The notes below the pieces were generated by a model, which worked only from the letters and a program-made list of their open reading frames with translations, searched no databases and was not told the DNA's origin. A stretch of DNA of 45,861 bases from a virus, in IMG/VR virus record IMGVR_UViG_3300028569_000059, positions 1 through 45,861 of that record, one strand, 5' to 3'. The translations under genes were made by a program, and so were the position numbers. Positions 8,761 to 34,861 of this stretch are shown one piece after another (position 1 is the first letter of the stretch; each line of letters begins with the position of its first letter).

Positions 8761-8964
8761 TTATTGCGAAGGGTGTGGGGATTCTGTATTTTTAGTTACT
8801 CCTTTGGTATGTTTAGGATTATAAGGACAATGTCTACACCCATTACCACAGCAATGACCTCTCTTTAAATGAAAAGAGGCGGTAAATACATACCGCCCGT
8901 TCTCAATATAATACTCTAACTCTTTAGTATTAACGTACTTCACAGGCTCCACCGGCACAAGCAA
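8761..8964 (-). CDS. DUF5522-type cysteine-rich small protein
   Basis: A 67-residue protein with the core YYIENGRYVFTASFHLKR followed by GHCCGNGCRHCPY. This is the signature of DUF5522, a short family I know mainly from Bacteroidota. Cysteines at 38, 39, 43 and 46 form a likely metal or iron-sulphur site. The start is a TTG at 8964 with AGGAG just upstream, lying inside the end of the reductase gene (35-base overlap). Its function is unknown; the overlap suggests expression with the reductase. Confidence 0.75.
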   Translation of the reverse strand: MLVPVEPVKYVNTKELEYYIENGRYVFTASFHLKRGHCCGNGCRHCPYNPKHTKGVTKNTESPHPSQ

Positions 8965-9955
8965 CTTCTCCTGCTAAATCTGTTAGGTCCTCTAACTCAA
9001 CGACCTTACTTAAATCAATATCAGCTAACACAGACATCAATCTTTCATAAGTTTCTTTATCACAATCCTCAAAAGGAAGCTGTGGGTAATTAGGATCACT
9101 GTACGCAAGTACTGAAAGTCCGTTATAGAATTTTCTATTTTCCCAAAACCATTCACCAACTGATTCCCATTCATGGTCTTTGATAGAAATAGTAGCTGAA
9201 ACGTTGTGCGTATTATTTCCTTTTCTATGCCCGGGTTTAATCCAATCTTTAGTCACTCTTTTTACTCTTTCTAAAAGATCAAAAGGTGATTCTGTTCTTA
9301 GGATTGCACCTTCTGGTGCTTTTTGAGGCACAGTAATGATTGCAGTATCATGAGGACGATTCTCACAATCCTCCACTAGTTCCGGGTGGTAGATTGAAAG
9401 ATAGGTGTAGATTGCTTCATTCTTTCCTACTCTTATTCTACGAAGGTAGTAGTCATTATGCCAGGCATGAATTCCACTAGAGGTTCCAAGTGTTAGAGAG
9501 GTTGTCCCTGCAGGCTTTACAGTCGTAGTCCTAGCCGAGCAGTTAATGCCGATCAGTTTAGCAACCCTTTCATTCTCCTGTTTTACTATTTCTGCAGCCT
9601 CAGACATATCGTAGTTTAAAACTGCACCTGATCCGATACCGGTCATTGATACTCCAATCAAAGCTTCTTTCTCAGTAGTGCGTTTCCAAACTTCTCTAAG
9701 ATAGTGAAAGTCTGTATAGCCGGCTTGTAAAGTTCCAATAAGGGCTGCTGCCTTAACTCTATTGTTATAATCTTCCTGAGATTCAATATCAGAGACATTT
9801 ACCTCACATAAGTTACAAAATTGGAAAGGGCGCAAAGCAATTTCACAGTTATGCGCTAAGATTCCATTTGCAAAGAAGTTGTGGTTGTTTTCCACTTCAA
9901 GATCATATACATCCTGTGTATGCTCCTGTACTGTTATTTTTATTAGTTTTGCCAT
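8930..9955 (-). CDS. nrdJ: Class II ribonucleotide reductase, C-terminal half with split-intein C-fragment
   Basis: The 341-residue product starts with a 36-residue intein C-fragment ending in ILAHN, followed by C-extein beginning CEIALRPFQFCNLCEVN. That segment is the conserved stretch just after the thiyl-radical cysteine of B12-dependent reductases (NPCxEI...FCNL.EV). The extein continues through the barrel (GVSMTGIGSG, PAGTTSLTLGTSSGIHAWH) and ends in a CAGGACEVR tail, whose cysteine pair (333, 338) fits the redox-shuttle cysteines. It must be joined to the N-half encoded at 10840-12102 to make an enzyme of about 618 residues that reduces ribonucleotides to deoxyribonucleotides for phage DNA synthesis. 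Only four bases separate its start from the endonuclease gene upstream. Confidence 0.9.
   Translation of the reverse strand: MAKLIKITVQEHTQDVYDLEVENNHNFFANGILAHNCEIALRPFQFCNLCEVNVSDIESQEDYNNRVKAAALIGTLQAGYTDFHYLREVWKRTTEKEALIGVSMTGIGSGAVLNYDMSEAAEIVKQENERVAKLIGINCSARTTTVKPAGTTSLTLGTSSGIHAWHNDYYLRRIRVGKNEAIYTYLSIYHPELVEDCENRPHDTAIITVPQKAPEGAILRTESPFDLLERVKRVTKDWIKPGHRKGNNTHNVSATISIKDHEWESVGEWFWENRKFYNGLSVLAYSDPNYPQLPFEDCDKETYERLMSVLADIDLSKVVELEDLTDLAGEVACAGGACEVR
9848..9955 (-). other. Split intein C-fragment (reductase), 36 residues
   Basis: Residues 1-36 of the reductase C-half. VYDLEVENNHNFFANGILAHN carries intein blocks F and G: the DLEV strand, the NHNFFANG turn and the terminal HN, with Cys as the +1 nucleophile. 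The size and split position match canonical naturally split inteins such as NrdJ-1. Boundaries were set by the HN/C junction. Confidence 0.9.
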
Positions 9956-9959
9956 TTTT

Positions 9960-10769
9960 TTAGTTTTTTGTTTTATTAATTTTCTTTTTATGTTGTCCGT
10001 AACCGGGGGTGTTAGTAAAGTTCCATTTTCGTGAACATTGTCCGTTGCAAAATTCCCGGGTGCTTTTCTGCTTACATGTAAAGGAGTTCTGACACTGTTT
10101 ACACTCTCTTACAACTGTTGGGTTTTTTTGTTTGGCGAGTTCTAGTTTTTGCAATCTTACTAACTCTCTCCGCTGCTTACCCTCCTCAGTCGACCAGTAA
10201 GCTTTTTGCTTTTTAGAGTTCATCTCCCTATATTCTGGTGTTTGTCGCTGCCTTGCTTTTTGTGCAATTAGAGCTTTAGTCTCCAGTGTGTGTTTTTTAC
10301 CGTACATGGAGTTATGTTCCCCTGCAGTGCTTTTTACGTGTTCGTAGTCGGTGATCGACCTTTTAACCCACTCTTGTATATCTGCTTGCAGGTTGTACTG
10401 GTTTACTAGTCTCTGGTACTTCCAAACAACTTCATACTCTACACCTATTTTTAAAAAATATTCTGCAAACTTTTCTTTGTATTCTACTGAGATAGCTTTT
10501 GCATCCCATCCTTTAGTCTCAACTATTTTATATAGCTGCCCTGTTTGATTATATAAGAAAAAATCTGGCTTGTAATTCTTACCATTTATACAGTATGTCA
10601 TACTTTCCACCTTGTACTCTATTTTTTGATGATCTAGGGTTCTTGCATAAATAAACTCAACTTTGCTTCGCAGAAAAACTTTGCTTCCGGTCCAAGTTGT
10701 ATGGTAACCAATATACCCTCGGCTTTTGTTATTCCCTTTCTTTACTTTTCCTCCGTTTTTATTTTTCAT
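9960..10769 (-). CDS. Free-standing homing endonuclease, PD-(D/E)xK type with NUMOD3
   Basis: A 269-residue protein lying exactly between the two halves of the split reductase. Residues about 30-90 form a PD-(D/E)xK nuclease core: YKPDFFLYNQ supplies the Asp and IVETKGW the E-x-K pair. A NUMOD3 DNA-binding motif follows (NSMYGKKHTLETKALIAQKA, about 155-175), then basic helices and a four-cysteine zinc finger (CKQCQNSF...FCNGQC, about 223-248). It probably cuts the uninterrupted reductase gene and so spreads the split-intein insertion. A hairpin with an internal promoter-like motif sits right before it. The exact family is inferred from motifs. Confidence 0.8.
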   Translation of the reverse strand: MKNKNGGKVKKGNNKSRGYIGYHTTWTGSKVFLRSKVEFIYARTLDHQKIEYKVESMTYCINGKNYKPDFFLYNQTGQLYKIVETKGWDAKAISVEYKEKFAEYFLKIGVEYEVVWKYQRLVNQYNLQADIQEWVKRSITDYEHVKSTAGEHNSMYGKKHTLETKALIAQKARQRQTPEYREMNSKKQKAYWSTEEGKQRRELVRLQKLELAKQKNPTVVRECKQCQNSFTCKQKSTREFCNGQCSRKWNFTNTPGYGQHKKKINKTKN

Positions 10770-10778
10770 AGTGCTTAT

Positions 10779-10827
10779 ACTTTAGTGCTATTTCCTTTAT
10801 TATAAATAGTCGAAATAGCACTAAAGT
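10779..10827 (-). promoter_or_regulatory. 15-bp perfect hairpin with promoter-like loop before homing endonuclease gene
   Basis: On the plus strand ACTTTAGTGCTATTT (10779-10793) is the exact inverse complement of AAATAGCACTAAAGT (10813-10827). The 19-base loop holds TATTTATA (minus strand, 10808-10801). The 3' arm ends 9 bases before the ATG at 10769. Read-through RNA would fold the start region into the stem; RNA begun about 6-7 bases after the motif would lack the 5' arm. The arrangement mirrors the T4 I-TevI leader. Confidence 0.75.
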
Positions 10828-10839
10828 TGTTGCAGCTCT

Positions 10840-12102
10840 TTACTTTTCTTTGTTAAATATTACAAGATCATCTTCGTGTGTTAAGTTCATACATTCAACC
10901 CACCCTCTATTTGTTGTATAGAACCTATGATCCGGTGTACAACTAACACGGTAAACCACTCCATCTTCTTCTACTTCAAGTTCAACAACTACACTGTCTT
11001 TTCTTGAAAGTATTCCCGCTCTAACAGTTTGAAGCTCTATTTGACGTGTTTCCTCGTTGTAGGTTTGTACTTTATAGGTCTCTCCTTTTTCCAAACCTTC
11101 AACAATCTCTAGAATACTCTTTTTGCCATTCTCCAACTCTATTTGAGTGTCGGCAACAAAGCAGCAAGGATTAGTACCCCACTCCAAATTATTAGTAAAA
11201 TAGATTCCTGGCTCTCCTGCTCCTGATTTTTCAATTCTTTTCCAAATATCTAAGAACTGTTCTTTCTCAGTAGTTGATCTTAAAAGAACTGCTGAGTTAT
11301 TAGCTCTTCCACGTTGAGGGTTCAATTCCCACCATGCTCCAGACTTAGCAGCAATCATCTCATCATCTTCAGCTGAGAATAAAGAAATCAAAGCAGCTCT
11401 TCTAATACCGCCTGCCAATACTGCATCAGCAATGTGACAAACCATATCGTGAACTTCGATAGTTGAAAGTTTTTGACCGTCCTTCTTAGACTCTAACATA
11501 CCCTGTAGCTTAACTAAACACTCTCTCAAAGGAGCAGGTCCTGGTGCTTTACCACCAGCAGTAATCAATCTTGCACCTTTAGGTCTGATATCTGAGTAAT
11601 CAAATTCAATAGTAGAAGTTCCGGTAAAGTAGGATTTCATTAATATCTTAACAGCATCTGCCCATCCTTCAATAGAATCGCCGATCAAGAATCTCTTCTT
11701 TCTATTAGGGTTAGGTTTTCTAATCTCAGGTAGTTTCTCAATATGATCGAACTGTACTGAGTATCCAACCCCGGTTCCTCCTAAAAGTAAAAACATAACC
11801 TCACCAAAAGCTCTAATATCATCGATAGGTAAATATGCACAGTTATAGATACGTGCAGGATTTACTTCAATAGGCTTTCCAGCAAACTGCATAGACCTCA
11901 TTGAAGGTAGAACCTTCCTGTCGTATACTAGTTGGTAAGCAGATTCAATCTCCTCATGTAATTGAGGATACTTCTTCTGATGCATCTCTTTGTTTCTTGA
12001 AACCAACTCTTCCCATGTTTCTCTTCTGTTTAAATGCGGTTGGTATTTCGCATATTTTAAAAACACTGTGATGTCGCTTAGAATTTTTTGACTTATATTC
12101 AT
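10840..12102 (-). CDS. nrdJ: Class II ribonucleotide reductase, N-terminal half with split-intein N-fragment
   Basis: The 420-residue product has a 313-residue N-extein and a 107-residue intein N-fragment. The extein shows reductase features: RETWEELVSRN, DRKVLPSMRSMQFAG, the redox cysteine in NCAYLP, LLLGGTGVGYSVQ, and the terminal GTNPC that holds the radical cysteine. No ATP-cone is present, and the overall pattern is nearer to monomeric B12-dependent reductases (RTPR) than to NrdA. The intein starts at the second cysteine of NPCC. Splicing to the C-half gives NPC-CEI, matching the family pattern NPCxEI. The split at the catalytic cysteine leaves neither half active alone. Confidence 0.9.
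   Translation of the reverse strand: MNISQKILSDITVFLKYAKYQPHLNRRETWEELVSRNKEMHQKKYPQLHEEIESAYQLVYDRKVLPSMRSMQFAGKPIEVNPARIYNCAYLPIDDIRAFGEVMFLLLGGTGVGYSVQFDHIEKLPEIRKPNPNRKKRFLIGDSIEGWADAVKILMKSYFTGTSTIEFDYSDIRPKGARLITAGGKAPGPAPLRECLVKLQGMLESKKDGQKLSTIEVHDMVCHIADAVLAGGIRRAALISLFSAEDDEMIAAKSGAWWELNPQRGRANNSAVLLRSTTEKEQFLDIWKRIEKSGAGEPGIYFTNNLEWGTNPCCFVADTQIELENGKKSILEIVEGLEKGETYKVQTYNEETRQIELQTVRAGILSRKDSVVVELEVEEDGVVYRVSCTPDHRFYTTNRGWVECMNLTHEDDLVIFNKEK
10843..11163 (-). other. Split intein N-fragment (reductase), 107 residues
   Basis: Residues 314-420 of the N-half product. It begins CFVADTQIELENGKKSILEI (block A with Cys1) and carries block B as SCTPDHRFYTTNRGWVE (TxxH pattern), ending in LTHEDDLVIFNKEK. 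Length and motif order fit canonical split inteins cut at the usual endonuclease insertion point. Confidence 0.9.
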
Positions 12103-12165
12103 TTCTGTTTTATTTGTAATGTACTTAATAACTATCTAGTTTTTTTAAAAAATCCCCTGTTTTTT

Positions 12166-13344
12166 TTAAGAAAAGGATGAAAGTTGGGTGAATTTTTTAG
12201 CTAGCTCTCGTCTGTCAAAAGAGTCAACTTGAGAGAAGCTAGTAGTGGTAGTTGGGGTACTATCTTCATATGTAGGTAGATCCTCGGTAAGTTCGATGTG
12301 TCCATTGTTAGTATCAATCTTTGCACCGTAAGTCATACCATCCATCCCGTATCTGTTTTTCATAACATGCACTCGGCCGGTCCCATTCACCTTATCCTCT
12401 TTTTTTCTTGATAAGGAAAGGCAGAAGTCTGCAACCATAATCTTATCGTAAGATCCGGCAGCTTTATCTCCCTCGATGATATCATCTTTTGCACCCATCC
12501 TGTTTACCTGAGAAGGAGATAGAACGGTTACTTTATATTCTTTTGCCAACCCTTTACATGCTACATAAACGTCATCGATTTCATCTTTGCGTTCAGCAAA
12601 CTTTTTAGACATTGATCTTAAGTAGTCAATGTAATCTATAATTACTAAATCTGGTTTAATATCAGCATCAATACATTTCTGCAAATGTGACTTAATGGTT
12701 GAGATAGTAGCTGATTTAGGTGGGTATTCTTTTACTACTAGTTTTCCGGCTAGGTTTGCAACAAGTGCTTCTACTTCAGGCCTGTGGTGTTGAACTTCCT
12801 CAATACTATGTCCGGTAAAGTAACAGTCAAATCGCTTACCGACATAATCTTCCCCTAACTCTAAGGTGTAGTATACTACATTGTATCCTAGCTTGACTGC
12901 ATGTGCGGCCATGGCAACCATCATCCAAGAGTTGTGTGAAAGTATGCCGTTACTGTAGTAACAAAACACATCTGCTACTGAAAGGTCGTACATTACTTTT
13001 TCTTTTTTATTAACTATTTGCTCTTCTACCCTGGTTACCCCTTCTTCTGTAAGTATTAAATCATCGGAAGTTAGTTCATCAGCCTTTACCCAATCCCTAT
13101 TGTCTGTTTTAAATAGATGGTGCCCTGATGTGTTTAACGACTCTCCGTTACTAAAAGTTGTCGTAATGGATGGCTGTCTCTCTGTTGTAAACAGTGTTAC
13201 GATTGGTTTAAATCCATAGGGTGTTTTTACCTTAAGGTCAAATTCCGTAAGGTATATATTTTCCGGCCGTGGTTCAATTCCTAACTTGAAGAATAAATCC
13301 CCGATCTTAATTTTTTCTGTTTTTGTTCGTGTTTGTATTTTCAT
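12166..13344 (-). CDS. Replicative DNA helicase (DnaB/gp41 type), C-terminal half with split-intein C-fragment
   Basis: The 392-residue product starts with a 138-residue intein C-fragment ending ILSHN, then a 254-residue C-extein starting SWMMVAMAAHAVKLGYNVVY. The serine completes the Walker A P-loop GNPGGGK-S begun in the other half. The extein carries Walker B (DLVIIDYIDYL), SPSQVNRMG and AGSYDKIMVADFCLSLSR, all RecA-fold helicase core motifs, and VHVMKNRYGMDG near the end. The rebuilt helicase of about 456 residues would be close to T4 gp41 in size and would unwind DNA at the phage fork as a hexamer. The endonuclease gene upstream overlaps its start by 38 bases. Confidence 0.9.
   Translation of the reverse strand: MKIQTRTKTEKIKIGDLFFKLGIEPRPENIYLTEFDLKVKTPYGFKPIVTLFTTERQPSITTTFSNGESLNTSGHHLFKTDNRDWVKADELTSDDLILTEEGVTRVEEQIVNKKEKVMYDLSVADVFCYYSNGILSHNSWMMVAMAAHAVKLGYNVVYYTLELGEDYVGKRFDCYFTGHSIEEVQHHRPEVEALVANLAGKLVVKEYPPKSATISTIKSHLQKCIDADIKPDLVIIDYIDYLRSMSKKFAERKDEIDDVYVACKGLAKEYKVTVLSPSQVNRMGAKDDIIEGDKAAGSYDKIMVADFCLSLSRKKEDKVNGTGRVHVMKNRYGMDGMTYGAKIDTNNGHIELTEDLPTYEDSTPTTTTSFSQVDSFDRRELAKKFTQLSSFS
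12931..13344 (-). other. Split intein C-fragment (helicase), 138 residues, atypically long
   Basis: Residues 1-138. It contains an intein strand set normally found in the N-half (IKIGDLFFKLG, LKVKTPYGFKPI), block B (SLNTSGHHLFKTDNRDW), then block F and G (VMYDLSVADVFCYYSNG and ILSHN) with Ser as the +1 residue. Having block B on this side means the split falls between blocks A and B. Confidence 0.85.
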
Positions 13345-14224
13345 AACTTATGTATTTTTTAATTTTTTCTATTTCTTGCTGTTTATCTTTTTTCCAATCT
13401 GCCTCCCATATAATATACGTACTATATCCCAACTCTGCAAATTTAGCAGTTCGTTTTCTATCTCTGTCATGTATTCTTTGTGCTTTTCCTATAAGGGGTA
13501 GAGTGTCCTGCGTAAAGACCCTAGGATTAGCATGCCAAAAATCACCGTAGTATTCTATAATAATATTCTCGTATAACATATCCACGATGTAGTTCTCGAT
13601 AGTGGTATTGGCCTTCAGACCTGGAAGGTGTTTCTGCAACTCCATATAACAGTTAATTTCCCCTGTTGATCTTAATCCCTCTTTGCCTTTATAGAACTTA
13701 TTAACCCATTCTCTAGCTCCAAACTCCAGCACTCTTTTCTGCATTGTTTCTGAGATTCTCTGTTTACTCTCTGCTGTGTGTTGCTTCCCTGTAAATTTGC
13801 TCGACTGTACGCTATACTTACTTTGTTCAACAGCACGTAGATTCTTTGCTTCTTGTTCCGAATAGCCTCTCTTTTTCCAATATTCTAAAGATCTTTTGGA
13901 ATTGCTTGCTTGTTTGTCGTTCCACTTTTTCTGCATCTCTTCTTGAGCTTTTCCCTCCCCTATTCCTTTTTCTAAAAACCGTTGCTTTGCTAGACTTTGA
14001 AAATTTTTAACCTCTATTTGCGCCTGTTCTAATGAACATCCTTGAAGCATCCAATAATCGATTGTTCTTTTGCTATGGCCGGTCATTGTTTTTGCTTTCG
14101 GGTACTGCTTTTTATATTCTGTGGTTCTTAAGTTGTGTTTTTCTCTTAGGTGGCTGTTCAAGGCTTTTTGCTCCCAGTGTCCGCAGATCTGACAAACTAA
14201 CCCCGGTGGTTTTTCTCTATTCAT
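13307..14224 (-). CDS. Free-standing homing endonuclease, Vsr/EDxHD-like
   Basis: About 305 residues from the ATG at 14224 (MNREKPPG); this start follows a TATTTATA motif by 12 bases, whereas the ATG at 14257 would put the motif inside the gene. An N-terminal MucR-like zinc finger (CQICGHW...HLREKH) and a basic middle with a NUMOD3-like stretch (FTGKQHTAESKQRISETM) lead to a C-terminal nuclease: IVDMLYENIIIEYYGDFWHA, then RDRKRTAKFAELGYS and IIWEADW. This pattern matches the Vsr-like endonucleases described beside fractured phage genes. It lies between the two helicase halves and probably mobilises the split intein. Confidence 0.82.
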   Translation of the reverse strand: MNREKPPGLVCQICGHWEQKALNSHLREKHNLRTTEYKKQYPKAKTMTGHSKRTIDYWMLQGCSLEQAQIEVKNFQSLAKQRFLEKGIGEGKAQEEMQKKWNDKQASNSKRSLEYWKKRGYSEQEAKNLRAVEQSKYSVQSSKFTGKQHTAESKQRISETMQKRVLEFGAREWVNKFYKGKEGLRSTGEINCYMELQKHLPGLKANTTIENYIVDMLYENIIIEYYGDFWHANPRVFTQDTLPLIGKAQRIHDRDRKRTAKFAELGYSTYIIWEADWKKDKQQEIEKIKKYISYENTNTNKNRKN

Positions 14225-14236
14225 AAAGTACTTTCT

Positions 14237-14244
14237 TATAAATA
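14237..14244 (-). promoter_or_regulatory. Candidate late promoter motif before Vsr-like endonuclease
   Basis: The minus strand reads TATTTATA within GCCTATTTATAAGAAAG, 12 bases upstream of the chosen ATG. A 10-base palindrome AAAGTACTTT lies between the motif and the start codon and could fold over it. Confidence 0.5.
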
Positions 14245-14274
14245 GGCTTGCCACCACCGGGATTTTAACTTTTT

Positions 14275-15060
14275 CTAATTCTTTTTTAAGTTTGTTAGTA
14301 GGTTATAAACCTGCCACCCGTATAGGTGGTGTCCGTCAATGTTAAACTCTTCCCACGGCTGTACCCACATTGTGTAAGGTTCTCCTTGACTATTAACTAA
14401 CTCTAAACCATATTCCGGGTATTCTATTTCAATTATTGCGTTTTCATCTAGGCATTTACCTCCGCCTGGATTACCGAATACTATACCTAAGTCGCCAGGA
14501 CCTAAACCGCCTTGTGTTAATTGATTAATCATAGGCCAAGGGGTTGGTATAACAGGTCTGTAATCTTCCCTGTAACGTGTTTCAATATCCTTGTTGTACT
14601 CGTGTCCAATGTTTCTATCCTCACCAGCTTTTAATGCATTATCAATCAAACCTCTAATTGAGTCATAATCTCCTACATTTAATAGATCTACTGAGTTTAG
14701 TAATGCTGTTTTTAATTGCTGGTTTTTGCAGAAAGCAGTAAACTCTTCTTCTACATACTGTAGTTCATCATCTGAATGTCGGTAAGCTTCTTTAACCTGC
14801 TCGATGATAGAAGTTCTAAGTACCTCATTATCTAACCTCTTAACCTCTATCTTAAGGGTATCCATAGAGATGACTGTGTGGTATTTATGCCAGTATCTTA
14901 AAATCTCATTTATAATCCATTTATGGGCTGGGTTTTGGAAATGCTCATCTGATAGTATATCGTAGATGTTTTGTAGAAATTCCTTCCTAGTTAATAAAGC
15001 CCCGATTGTTTTAATCTGAAAGGCTGGTCCGTAATCACTTAATGCTCTTAATGATGCCAT
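14275..15060 (-). CDS. Replicative DNA helicase (DnaB/gp41 type), N-terminal half with split-intein N-fragment
   Basis: A 261-residue product: a 202-residue N-extein plus a 59-residue intein N-fragment. The extein has the helical N-domain of DnaB-like helicases (LTRKEFLQNIYDILSDEHF, WIINEILRYWHKY) and ends in the start of the P-loop, GDLGIVFGNPGGGK. The intein begins at the next residue (CLDENAIIEIE). The break therefore separates Lys from Ser within Walker A, so ATP binding depends on trans-splicing with the product of 12166-13344. A replication-type promoter motif lies 31 bases upstream of the ATG. Confidence 0.9.
   Translation of the reverse strand: MASLRALSDYGPAFQIKTIGALLTRKEFLQNIYDILSDEHFQNPAHKWIINEILRYWHKYHTVISMDTLKIEVKRLDNEVLRTSIIEQVKEAYRHSDDELQYVEEEFTAFCKNQQLKTALLNSVDLLNVGDYDSIRGLIDNALKAGEDRNIGHEYNKDIETRYREDYRPVIPTPWPMINQLTQGGLGPGDLGIVFGNPGGGKCLDENAIIEIEYPEYGLELVNSQGEPYTMWVQPWEEFNIDGHHLYGWQVYNLLTNLKKN
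14278..14454 (-). other. Split intein N-fragment (helicase), 59 residues, block A only
   Basis: Residues 203-261. Cys1 and block A (CLDENAIIEIEYPEYG) are followed by a non-conserved stretch rich in W and H, ending YNLLTNLKKN. No TxxH block B can be found in it; that block lies in the C-fragment. This resembles atypically split inteins with a short N-part. Confidence 0.82.
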
Positions 15061-15091
15061 AACTATAACTTATTTTTGTATAACTTGTTGC

Positions 15092-15106
15092 TGTAAATAT
15101 ATGAAC
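15092..15106 (-). promoter_or_regulatory. Candidate early/middle promoter motif before helicase
   Basis: The minus strand reads GTTCATATATTTACA, nearly identical to the element before the SSB gene (GTTACATATATTTACA). It lies between the exonuclease and helicase genes. Confidence 0.45.
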
Positions 15107-15107
15107 T

Positions 15108-16154
15108 TTATTTGAATCTTCCAAGTTGAAAGAAACATTCTGTGATCCATTGTTGGATATCCTTAATAAAAAATCCGATCTGATCTAATTCGTAAAGCTC
15201 TAAAAATTGCTTCTTGTAGAATCCATTATTCTCAGACTCAATTAACTCTTCAATGTACTTGACCTGTCTATCATCCAGGATTGGATTTTTTAAATCCATC
15301 AGCTTATAGTGATTCTCTAAGTTATTCCTCCGGAATAAAATCTGAGGGTACACCTTATGTTCTGATAGATGATCTTCGCAGTGTTGGAAAATATCCTGCA
15401 AGGTCATAGGAACGGTCATAATATCTGGGAATAATTTAAGCAGGGTTTTAGGTCCTAAGCCTTTTACTCCCTCAATCTTATCTGATTGATCCCCGAGCAT
15501 AGTCTTATAGATAATAAAGTTACTTGGGTGAATTAAAAATTCCTTCTTAACATCCTTAGGTCCGTAGAAGACCTTAGTCACCGGACGGTATAAAGTTACC
15601 TTATTCGAAACTAGCTGTAGGTAATCCTTATCTGAAGAAACAATAACAACCTCGGAATCAAACCTAGTAGGTAATTCTGCTGCCATGTATGCAATCATAT
15701 CATCAGCCTCTGCCTTATCAATCATACCTACTTTGATAGGTAAACACTGGAGGTAGTGAATAAATCTAGTAATCTGACTAACCTTAGCATCATTTTCTTC
15801 TTCCAGGTCATCAAAAGTATCCCAGTTTGTAATTCTGTTTATCCCTCGGTTTGATTTATACTCCGGTAACAGATTTTTTCTATTTGTAGAAGATCCTACT
15901 CCGTCAAAGATTACATACACTCCGGTTGGTTGTACAAGCTGTACTAAAGATCCTAATGATCTAATTGAACCTGCCAGCCCTCCAATATGTGCACCGTCCT
16001 TATTAATCATATTGATAGTTGCAAAGTTCCTAAAGAATAAATTCAGTGCATCAATGATTAATACCCGGGAGTGGAAGTTTTCTTCTATGTGAACGGCAGG
16101 TGTGTCTTCCTGCTGGTTTATGGAATCAAGCATGGCTTGAAAGTCTTTTCTCAT
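15108..16154 (-). CDS. 5'-3' exonuclease / flap endonuclease (T4 RNase H-like)
   Basis: 348 residues from the ATG at 16154 (MRKDFQAM); the longer frame from a TTG at 16190 would lie within a terminator hairpin and is rejected. FEN-family motifs are in order: LIIDALNLFFRN, YVIFDGVGS, KAEADDMIAYMA, VIVSSDKDYLQL, then the helix-3-turn-helix GDQSDKIEGVKGLGPKT. The acidic residues in these motifs bind two metal ions. It removes RNA primers or 5' flaps during lagging-strand synthesis. It sits downstream of a terminator in the replication cluster. Confidence 0.9.
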   Translation of the reverse strand: MRKDFQAMLDSINQQEDTPAVHIEENFHSRVLIIDALNLFFRNFATINMINKDGAHIGGLAGSIRSLGSLVQLVQPTGVYVIFDGVGSSTNRKNLLPEYKSNRGINRITNWDTFDDLEEENDAKVSQITRFIHYLQCLPIKVGMIDKAEADDMIAYMAAELPTRFDSEVVIVSSDKDYLQLVSNKVTLYRPVTKVFYGPKDVKKEFLIHPSNFIIYKTMLGDQSDKIEGVKGLGPKTLLKLFPDIMTVPMTLQDIFQHCEDHLSEHKVYPQILFRRNNLENHYKLMDLKNPILDDRQVKYIEELIESENNGFYKKQFLELYELDQIGFFIKDIQQWITECFFQLGRFK

Positions 16155-33415: not shown

Positions 33416-34861
33416 ATGGTAAAATTAAAGAAAATTATTTGTAAAACTTGTAAGTCAGAGTTTGAGATTGAAAATTACAAGAAAAGAACCTACTGCAGTA
33501 AATCTTGCAAAAACAAGGACCCGGAACTGGTTTCTAAAGCTAACCACAAACGTAAGGAAACTTGGGACAATTTATACGACGGTCATCCTATGAAGTCCCC
33601 AGAAATTCAAAAAAAACATGTAGAGTCTATGGTGGAGCATTACGGTGTGTCTCATGCCCTTCAGTCAAATACTCTGCAAGAGCGTGCAAAAAAAACCAGG
33701 TTAGAGCGGTACGGTGATCCTAACTTTTCTAATATCGATAAGGCTATGGATACTAAATTGCAAAAGTACGGGTCTTATAACAACCACCAAAAAAGAACTC
33801 TATCTACTTTGCAGAGAAGATTTGAAACCTATTCTAATATCCGCTTGTTGGATATTAACGAACATTCTCAGATTAACGGTAATAAGTTTGAAGTTGAGTG
33901 CCTAAAATGCGGCCGGGTCTGGAGCTGTACTTTAATGAATAACTACCATCCTCAATGCAAGCAATGTTCTACTAAGTATACTAAAACCTCTAAAGGTCAT
34001 TCTGAAATTTTATCTTTTCTGTCTGACTACCTCCCTGGTATTGATATTCTTAGCAACTCTAGATTACTTTCTCCAAAGTTTGAATTAGATATTTATATCC
34101 CATCTCTTAATCTTGCAATCGAATTCAACGGTTTGTATTTTCATAACGACCAGTTGAAGGATAAAAAATACCACCTTAAAAAAACCCGGTTCTGTCTTTC
34201 TCATGGAATTCAGCTGATTCATATTTTTGAACATGAGTGGTTATATAAACGAGAGATTGTAGAATCTATGCTACTTAGTAAAACCAAAAAACTAAAAACT
34301 TCCACCTATGCCAGAAAATGTACAGTTGTTGAACTAACTAGCAAAGATAAGAGACGTTTTTTCGATCAAAATCACCTACACGGAGATGTTAGAAGCTCTC
34401 TCTGTTTGGGGTTACTCTTTGATGGTACCCTTGTTTGCGCTTTATCTTTAGGTAAGCCCAGATTTTCAGACCGGCATGAATGGGAGATTATTAGGTTTGC
34501 TAACCTAAGGTACACTAACGTTGTTGGCGGTTTTTCTAAACTCTTTAAACATTTTATTACTTCTAGGAATCCACAGTCAGTCTTGACCTTCGCTGATCGT
34601 TCTTGGAGTTCTGGCCTATTGTATTTAAGCGCCGGTTTTCAATTTCTGGAGTTTACTCCTCCTAATTATTTTTATTTTAAAAACACAACAGTATATCCTA
34701 GACAAGTGTTCCAAAAACACAAACTACAAAAGCTACTTGCAACGTACTCCCCTAACCTCTCCGAGTATGAAAATATGTTACAGAACGGCTATCTACGTAT
34801 TTGGAATTCGGGCAATGTAAAGCTCCAATGGCTCCCTGGTAACAAAAAAGGTGCTGTTTAA
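33416..34861 (+). CDS. Plus-strand homing endonuclease with zinc fingers and Vsr-like nuclease core
   Basis: A 481-residue protein, the only gene on the plus strand. It has an N-terminal zinc finger (CKTCKSEF...YCSKSCK), a NUMOD-like helical region (about 50-130), a second zinc ribbon (CLKCGRVW...QCKQC, about 162-190), and a nuclease core at about 218-275: LDIYIPSLNLAIEFNGLYFH, then FCLSHGIQLIHIFEHEW. This matches Vsr/EDxHD-type phage endonucleases. The C-terminal 200 residues are an additional domain seen in that group. It interrupts the sheath-tube gene pair. The ATG is embedded in CTATTTATGG, almost the late motif itself, so its message may be leaderless. Confidence 0.82.
   Translation: MVKLKKIICKTCKSEFEIENYKKRTYCSKSCKNKDPELVSKANHKRKETWDNLYDGHPMKSPEIQKKHVESMVEHYGVSHALQSNTLQERAKKTRLERYGDPNFSNIDKAMDTKLQKYGSYNNHQKRTLSTLQRRFETYSNIRLLDINEHSQINGNKFEVECLKCGRVWSCTLMNNYHPQCKQCSTKYTKTSKGHSEILSFLSDYLPGIDILSNSRLLSPKFELDIYIPSLNLAIEFNGLYFHNDQLKDKKYHLKKTRFCLSHGIQLIHIFEHEWLYKREIVESMLLSKTKKLKTSTYARKCTVVELTSKDKRRFFDQNHLHGDVRSSLCLGLLFDGTLVCALSLGKPRFSDRHEWEIIRFANLRYTNVVGGFSKLFKHFITSRNPQSVLTFADRSWSSGLLYLSAGFQFLEFTPPNYFYFKNTTVYPRQVFQKHKLQKLLATYSPNLSEYENMLQNGYLRIWNSGNVKLQWLPGNKKGAV

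Follow-up and report, generated by a model that had tools for sequence, protein, structure and literature searches.

The window analysed here is a 45,861-base IMG/VR virus record, an incomplete metagenomic contig of a T4-like phage that carries genes for a tail sheath, a gp41-type helicase, a UvsX-like recombinase and an exonuclease. The DnaB/gp41 replicative helicase was found to be encoded as two open reading frames (ORFs) on the minus strand at positions 12166-15060, and the gene order from 15060 to 12166 was the helicase N-half, an endonuclease ORF and the helicase C-half. The N-half ORF (14275-15060, minus strand, 261 residues) consists of a 202-residue N-extein (14455..15060), which ends in VFGNPGGGK, the Walker A motif up to its Lys, and of a 59-residue intein N-part (IntN; 14278..14454), which begins with Cys1 directly after GNPGGGK, runs CLDENAIIEIE...NLKKN (CLDENAIIEIEYPEYGLELVNSQGEPYTMWVQPWEEFNIDGHHLYGWQVYNLLTNLKKN) and was kept in all relatives. 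The C-half ORF (12166-13344, minus strand, 392 residues) consists of a 138-residue intein C-part (IntC; 12931..13344), which holds the helix-1 segment KIKIGDLFFKL, block B (TSGHH in NTSGHHLF) and a C-terminal SHN (ILSHN), and of a 254-residue C-extein (12166..12930), which starts with S(+1)WMMVAMA. The Ser+1 is predicted to serve both as the Walker A Ser and as the splice nucleophile. A Vsr-like (EDxHD-type) candidate homing endonuclease of 305 residues is encoded between the halves (13307..14224, minus strand, ATG at 14224). The ORFs, intein parts, block B and gap gene of the original prediction for this locus, which had been made from the sequence alone, were all found where it had placed them. 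We consider it very probable that the locus is a mobile, atypically split class 1 intein at the GK|S of the helicase Walker A motif, spliced in trans, with a homing endonuclease gene in the gap.

The two exteins together comprise 456 residues (202 + 254). The N-half corresponded to positions 164-366 and the C-half to positions 367-589 of the PHROG 19 (DnaB-like replicative helicase) profile, and the halves therefore abut exactly. In the alignment of the joined extein, the junction GNPGGGK|SWMM was ungapped against 40 of 40 intein-free helicases, in all of which the empty site was exact, and the nearest seven of them were 87-89% identical to the joined extein. The joined exteins have the predicted length of about 456 residues and a restored Walker A motif (GNPGGGK-S), and the position of the split intein at GK|S was also borne out. 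The nearest cultured relatives, judged by the helicase, were the Flavobacterium phages 'immuto', whose helicase is intact and without an intein and is 77% identical in the C-extein. The window and three relatives of about 160 kb were each found to have a single DnaB_C helicase gene; the second intact helicase that would have spoken against the original prediction was not found in these sequences. Another explanation is that the helicase gene is simply broken, as a pseudogene or an assembly artefact, and that the phage uses another helicase, as the incomplete state of the contig might suggest. This is very improbable, since many assemblies, obtained independently and from different samples, showed the same arrangement, all five segments were under purifying selection (the ratio of nonsynonymous to synonymous substitution rates, dN/dS, was well below 1 for IntN and IntC), the helicase motifs were undecayed, and the complete-size relatives have a single DnaB_C gene. 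The joint recurrence of both halves in many independent contigs, under purifying selection, indicates that the arrangement did not arise by chance.

IntC matched Intein_splicing and PT-HINT in Pfam, and the gp41-1, NpuDnaB and VidaL inteins in the PDB. The intein profile also matched VidaL, strongly in sequence, and Cat (consensus TerL). The block-B His (14/14) and the terminal SHN were invariant, the +1 residue was Ser or Thr, and Cys1 was present. In four relatives (L109, L114, L120 and L121), IntN and IntC lay in one uninterrupted ORF as mini-inteins of 187-193 residues. An AlphaFold model of the contiguous L114 intein, built from 42 alignment rows, had a complete Hint fold with a predicted local distance difference test score of 96.4 and a predicted template modeling (TM) score of 0.88. 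In a Foldseek search with this model, VidaL came first (E 1.3e-8, TM 0.81 over target), followed by gp41-1, RadA and other inteins. The complete Hint fold that had been anticipated was obtained for this contiguous relative with equivalent parts. The natural break falls between helix 46-52 and strand 58-68 of the L114 model, ahead of canonical helix 1; in terms of this model, it coincides with the S1 split site of VidaL and PolB16, which follows beta-2 and precedes helix 1 (PMC13014065).

The Hint fold (in L114), Cys1, the block-B His, the terminal His-Asn and the Ser/Thr at +1 place the intein in class 1. Block B lies in IntC and the break precedes helix 1/block N2, as in atypically (S1) split inteins, and the insertion at the P-loop GK|S corresponds to DnaB site b. 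The predicted split ahead of block B was confirmed in that KIKIGDLF and block B are both in the C-half. On the other hand, the intein differs from Mycobacterium smegmatis DnaBi1 (class 3, contiguous) in the presence of Cys1 and the split gene, and from gp41-1 (canonical split, IntN of about 88 residues with block B) in its 59-residue IntN without block B; its IntC is related to that of gp41-1. The IntN exceeds the 15-37 residues reported for atypically split inteins (PMC13014065) because of an extra conserved segment of about 40 residues, made up of strands and a helix (consensus PWEEFNIDG.HLYGWQVYNLL), which the contiguous forms also have. Naturally shorter IntN parts were found in L141 (33 residues), L119 (45 residues) and the SbcC group (29 residues), and the core IntN is therefore probably about 33 residues long. 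The IntN had no match among GenBank phages, the IntC was only 28-34% identical to TerL inteins, and a search for relatives in bacterial genomes gave 41 pattern matches, none of which was confirmed. The two halves are predicted to splice.

The endonuclease consists of an N-terminal Cys2-His zinc finger (Ros-like), NUMOD-like middle repeats and a C-terminal Vsr-like nuclease domain with EYYGDFWHANP. Its family profile matched Vsr (1odg, E 7e-4), and a Foldseek search with its model gave the catalytic domain of I-Bth0305I first (3r3p, E 1.1e-3, TM 0.74 over target) and then Vsr (1cw0). These two methods, each of modest significance, were consistent and support the predicted Vsr-like character of the enzyme, which presumably cuts intein-free Walker A DNA. 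The locus thus has the layout of the fractured genes, with an N-half, a free endonuclease ORF of the Vsr-like/EDxHD type and a C-half. NUMOD-like and Vsr-like endonucleases also occur in group I introns, and I-Bth0305I is the nearest fold; the gap might accordingly be an intron or another RNA element, with the halves joined as RNA and the intein contiguous. This can be regarded as extremely improbable, because an Rfam search of 8900-15200 detected no group I or II intron, and because only about 50 nucleotides (nt) separate the stop of the N-half from the endonuclease start, while the other end of the endonuclease gene shares 38 nt with the C-half, which leaves no room for one. In addition, the gaps of three split relatives (L099, L112 and L119) were 12, −4 and 13 nt.

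At least 25 distinct helicase relatives with an intein at the GK|S site were found in IMG/VR. The site occurred in five states, namely contiguous, split with an endonuclease gene, split with an endonuclease remnant, split without an endonuclease gene, and empty, and the empty site was found in near-identical phages. The gap was 0.7-1.2 kb in the split loci with an endonuclease gene and from −28 to 171 nt in those without; in L106, the last codons alone remained of the endonuclease gene (...WESDWKSRKQEI). Occupied and empty alleles were interleaved in the extein tree, with at least seven forced changes, and L096, an occupied relative of the window, was the sister of the empty L014. Comparison of L131 and L132 at the DNA level showed 96% identity in IntN (synonymous divergence, dS, 0.09) and 89% in IntC, whereas the synonymous sites of the exteins were saturated. 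Such near-identical intein DNA between diverged exteins is direct evidence of horizontal transfer of the intein DNA. Loci with and without the endonuclease gene were close neighbours three times (L115/L131, L103/L112 and L123/L145). The contiguous inteins did not form one clade, and therefore fission, fusion or both must have occurred more than once in these trees, which have long branches. The split, whole and half-decayed forms in related phages show how splits arise and spread.

It has to be considered whether the intein is instead old and immobile and kept for post-translational control of replication by conditional splicing, with the endonuclease as a passenger. Split and cis forms without an endonuclease gene persist, and a response to oxidation is known for P-loop inteins, for instance M. 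smegmatis DnaBi1 (PMC6195587). However, occupied and empty alleles interleave among close phages, intein DNA has moved between diverged exteins, and the endonuclease was under purifying selection (dN/dS 0.10-0.23); an immobile intein is thus unlikely.

A Walker-A-site mimic (AATCCCGGTGGTGGCAAGCCT; 14244..14264, minus strand) was found past the stop codon of IntN and ahead of the endonuclease ATG. Of the homing site, it represents the left half, without the TGG right half, and it was identical to the intein-free alleles L036 and L080 at 17 of 20 positions. The mimic was detected with a position weight matrix (PWM) of helicase P-loop DNA scored against shuffles. The shuffle p was 0.03 or lower in 12 of 13 endonuclease-bearing loci; among the 11 loci that were contiguous or had no endonuclease gene, it was below 0.05 in two (Fisher p 0.0005), with the remnant locus L106, which was positive, left out. 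The loci are related, and neither the shuffle values nor the Fisher value represent independent tests. Taken as the top match of the whole gap, the mimic lay within the 5' flank at 10 of the 13 loci, compared with 2.1 expected from the lengths; among the held-out loci, it did so at 8 of 11, compared with 1.9 expected. Its reading frame varied between the loci, and TATTTATAAT directly followed it in several of them. No mimic was found with the single-site identity test at the ribonucleotide reductase (RNR) endonuclease or the SbcC loci. A P-loop copy as a protein feature, to which the ends of some IntN parts (GSGKTT*, GIGKTS*) pointed, was rejected, since the copy is out of frame in other loci.

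A late-promoter-like element (TATTTATA; 14237..14244, minus strand), which is common to the upstream regions of structural genes, adjoins the mimic. Its complement had 18 matches in the window, compared with 7.2 expected, and preceded many structural genes. A predicted RNA hairpin (14199..14264, minus strand) with a 12-bp outer stem (14264-14253/14210-14199; dG −29.4, z −5.6) encloses both this element and the endonuclease AUG. The element was located inside a strong hairpin at all four minus-strand endonuclease genes (14237, 10801, 32781 and 17470; z −5.6, −5.7, −4.8 and −3.4), whereas ten other TATTTATA sites, most of them directly before late genes, had no hairpin (z −0.8 to +2.3). The arrangement is that of the T4 type, a putative late promoter, identified by its sequence, in a hairpin over an endonuclease start. 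In T4, the operator of I-TevI mimics the homing site (15/20), and the hairpin is absent from late transcripts (PMC2988022). I-TevI, I-TevII, I-TevIII, SegB and MobE resemble the present case in the homing-site-like sequence at the promoter and the late promoter in a hairpin that sequesters the start (PMC2988022); the T4 endonucleases are intron-encoded or free-standing, whereas the gene described here lies between split-intein halves and its function is predicted. By analogy with T4, the hairpin-held late promoter probably restricts the endonuclease to late infection, and the mimic may allow its self-repression.

Several points weigh against this interpretation. The mimic may be a scar of endonuclease invasion, the left half of an old target carried along with the gene, rather than a working operator. 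It consists of the left half-site alone and abuts the cassette, and in L138 it was identical to the Walker A site of its own locus at 18 of 20 positions. Its inverted orientation in L102, L110 and L106 tells against an operator, but together with the various frames it also tells against a scar, as do its absence from most endonuclease-less loci (the Fisher test on related loci given above) and a layout like that of the I-TevI operator, which is proven, and of the I-TevII and I-TevIII operators, which are putative (PMC2988022). A scar is possible but rather unlikely, and we lean slightly towards an operator because T4 I-TevI has the same two devices, a homing-site-like operator and a hairpin. 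No mimic was found in L103, and the single-site identity test, which is weaker than the PWM, gave 14/20 for the window (p=0.06) and was mostly not significant; the mimic was therefore deduced from the PWM and the held-out loci. Furthermore, the Hint model is that of a contiguous relative whose IntN and IntC are 56% and 48% identical, respectively, to those of the window; the window is a 45.9-kb fragment, outside which a second helicase may lie; the tree does not fix the direction of the change between cis and split forms; and splicing, cleavage and regulation are deduced here from the sequences.

In the proposed mechanism, the two half-genes would be translated separately, and IntN (59 residues) would dock on IntC (138 residues) to give a complete Hint fold. 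The intein would then be excised and the 456-residue helicase joined through Cys1, the His of block B, the His-Asn at the intein terminus and Ser+1, so that its ATP-binding loop would exist only after splicing. The endonuclease, held to late infection by the promoter in the hairpin and perhaps repressing itself through the mimic, would cut the intein-free Walker A sequence of a co-infecting relative, and repair would copy the IntN-endonuclease-IntC block into the cut allele. The split probably arose by the entry of the endonuclease gene into a contiguous mini-intein, and it would outlast the decay of the endonuclease because the protein halves would still splice.

Beyond what the original prediction described, the locus is one member of a large family in several P-loop ATPases, with contiguous, split, endonuclease-bearing and endonuclease-less forms; the 'fractured gene' layout named in the prediction stood. 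In a scan with the endonuclease profile, 52 returned loci were inspected, with the junction called by an automated rule; an intein at a GK| junction was called in 35 of them, and seven more were seen by eye. The exteins were DnaB-type helicases, SbcC/gp46-like proteins, UvsW-type SF2 helicases, terminase large subunits and a clamp loader. In the SbcC/gp46-like genes of L127-L130, L197, L205, L206, L209, L213, L221, L228, L233 and L236, split inteins with an endonuclease gene were found on or adjoining the Walker A GK|S/T. The UvsW-type genes were fractured in L196, L200 and L204, the terminase genes in L203, L220 and L234, and the clamp-loader gene in L231, whose junction was read from the C side only. 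A GIY-YIG endonuclease gene took the place of the Vsr-like one in the gap of the SbcC locus L127. The gp41 gene of a cultured phage, Vibrio phage vB_VmeM-32 (L157; KU160494, 1529-4604), was fractured at GVN|TGKS in the P-loop; MAGVN is followed by a short intein tail (about 26 residues), a Vsr-like ORF and the C-half, and the mimic of this locus scored 15/20 (p 0.013). The annotation of this record names none of these parts helicase or intein. A second fracture in the same phage, in which a SegG-like gene separates the halves, was found in UvsX. The occurrence of one endonuclease family at the Walker A junctions of ATPases from five or more families points to the strong conservation of P-loop DNA as the niche. 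A broader and tentative reading, which we rate somewhat below an even chance, is a Walker-A-seeking mobile system of T4-like phages in which P-loop-specialised Vsr-like endonucleases bring inteins, most of them atypically split, to the GK|S/T of unrelated ATPases and repress themselves via the promoter-proximal Walker A copy.

VidaL (PDB 6vgv), which was both the best structural match to the L114 model and a strong sequence match, and PolB16 OarG are likewise S1-split, between beta-2 and helix 1, and carry block B in IntC. The atypical nature of the predicted split point was upheld, but it has precedents in these two inteins (PMC13014065). Their IntN parts are 16 and 15 residues long, respectively (PMC13014065, PMC10189870), compared with 59 residues and the extra conserved beta/helix segment here, and the PolB16 intein lies in a DNA polymerase gene instead of a helicase gene. 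AceL-TerL and GOS-TerL are also Cys-dependent phage split inteins with a long IntC but are split after helix 1 (S2; PMC13014065), whereas the break here precedes it. The locus bears on the origin of split inteins and of splits near the N-terminus. In 2009, Dassa et al. reportedly described fractured genes in which split inteins occur together with EDxHD endonucleases in the order N-half, endonuclease, C-half; these share the gene order and the Vsr-like endonuclease with the present locus. Their inteins gp41-1, gp41-8 and NrdJ-1 are said to be split canonically after block B, and the gp41 insertion sites reportedly lie outside the P-loop. The IntN/IntC sizes of gp41-1, gp41-8 and NrdJ-1 are 88/37, 94/50 and 110/46 residues, respectively (PMC11766414). 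Inteins at DnaB site b, such as M. smegmatis DnaBi1, are inserted in the P-loop and use the P-loop Ser as the +1 nucleophile (PMC6195587). DnaBi1 shares these two features with the intein of the window but is contiguous, belongs to class 3 and has no endonuclease gene, whereas the window intein is split and of class 1 (Cys1).

The results support the interpretation of the locus in the original prediction. Its suggestion of a new case applied to the combination but not to the P-loop insertion alone, for which DnaB site b is a precedent (PMC6195587). P-loop inteins (DnaB site b), atypical splits (VidaL, AceL-TerL) and the fractured layout are each already known separately. As far as checked, the new features are an S1-split intein that fractures a replicative helicase at Walker A, with its long IntN, the contiguous siblings and a series of endonuclease loss, as well as the homing-site mimic and the association of one endonuclease family with the Walker A junctions of several ATPases. 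Empty, contiguous, split endonuclease-bearing, decayed and endonuclease-less alleles at one site make the order of events testable, and, for applications, the family adds new natural inteins with an atypical split, which are probably orthogonal.

A second fractured gene with a canonical split intein was found at 8930-12102 on the minus strand of the window (PDB match to NrdJ-1, E 2e-15). It comprises an NrdJ-type RNR N-half (10840..12102) with a canonical IntN of the NrdJ-1 class at GTNPC|C, a NUMOD3 endonuclease gene in the gap (9960..10769) with the late-promoter element in a hairpin (z −5.7), and an RNR C-half (8930..9955) with a 36-residue IntC (...ANGILAHN|C). The RNR gene of a relative (L015, 5463-8393) has a large contiguous intein in the NP(S/C) region, where the RNR of the window splits. 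An extra ORF of about 83 residues lies beside the endonuclease gene in the gap of L138 (598-849). In addition, a lone plus-strand putative endonuclease gene with weak DUF7487 and MTES_1575 matches was found among the structural genes of the window (33416-34861).

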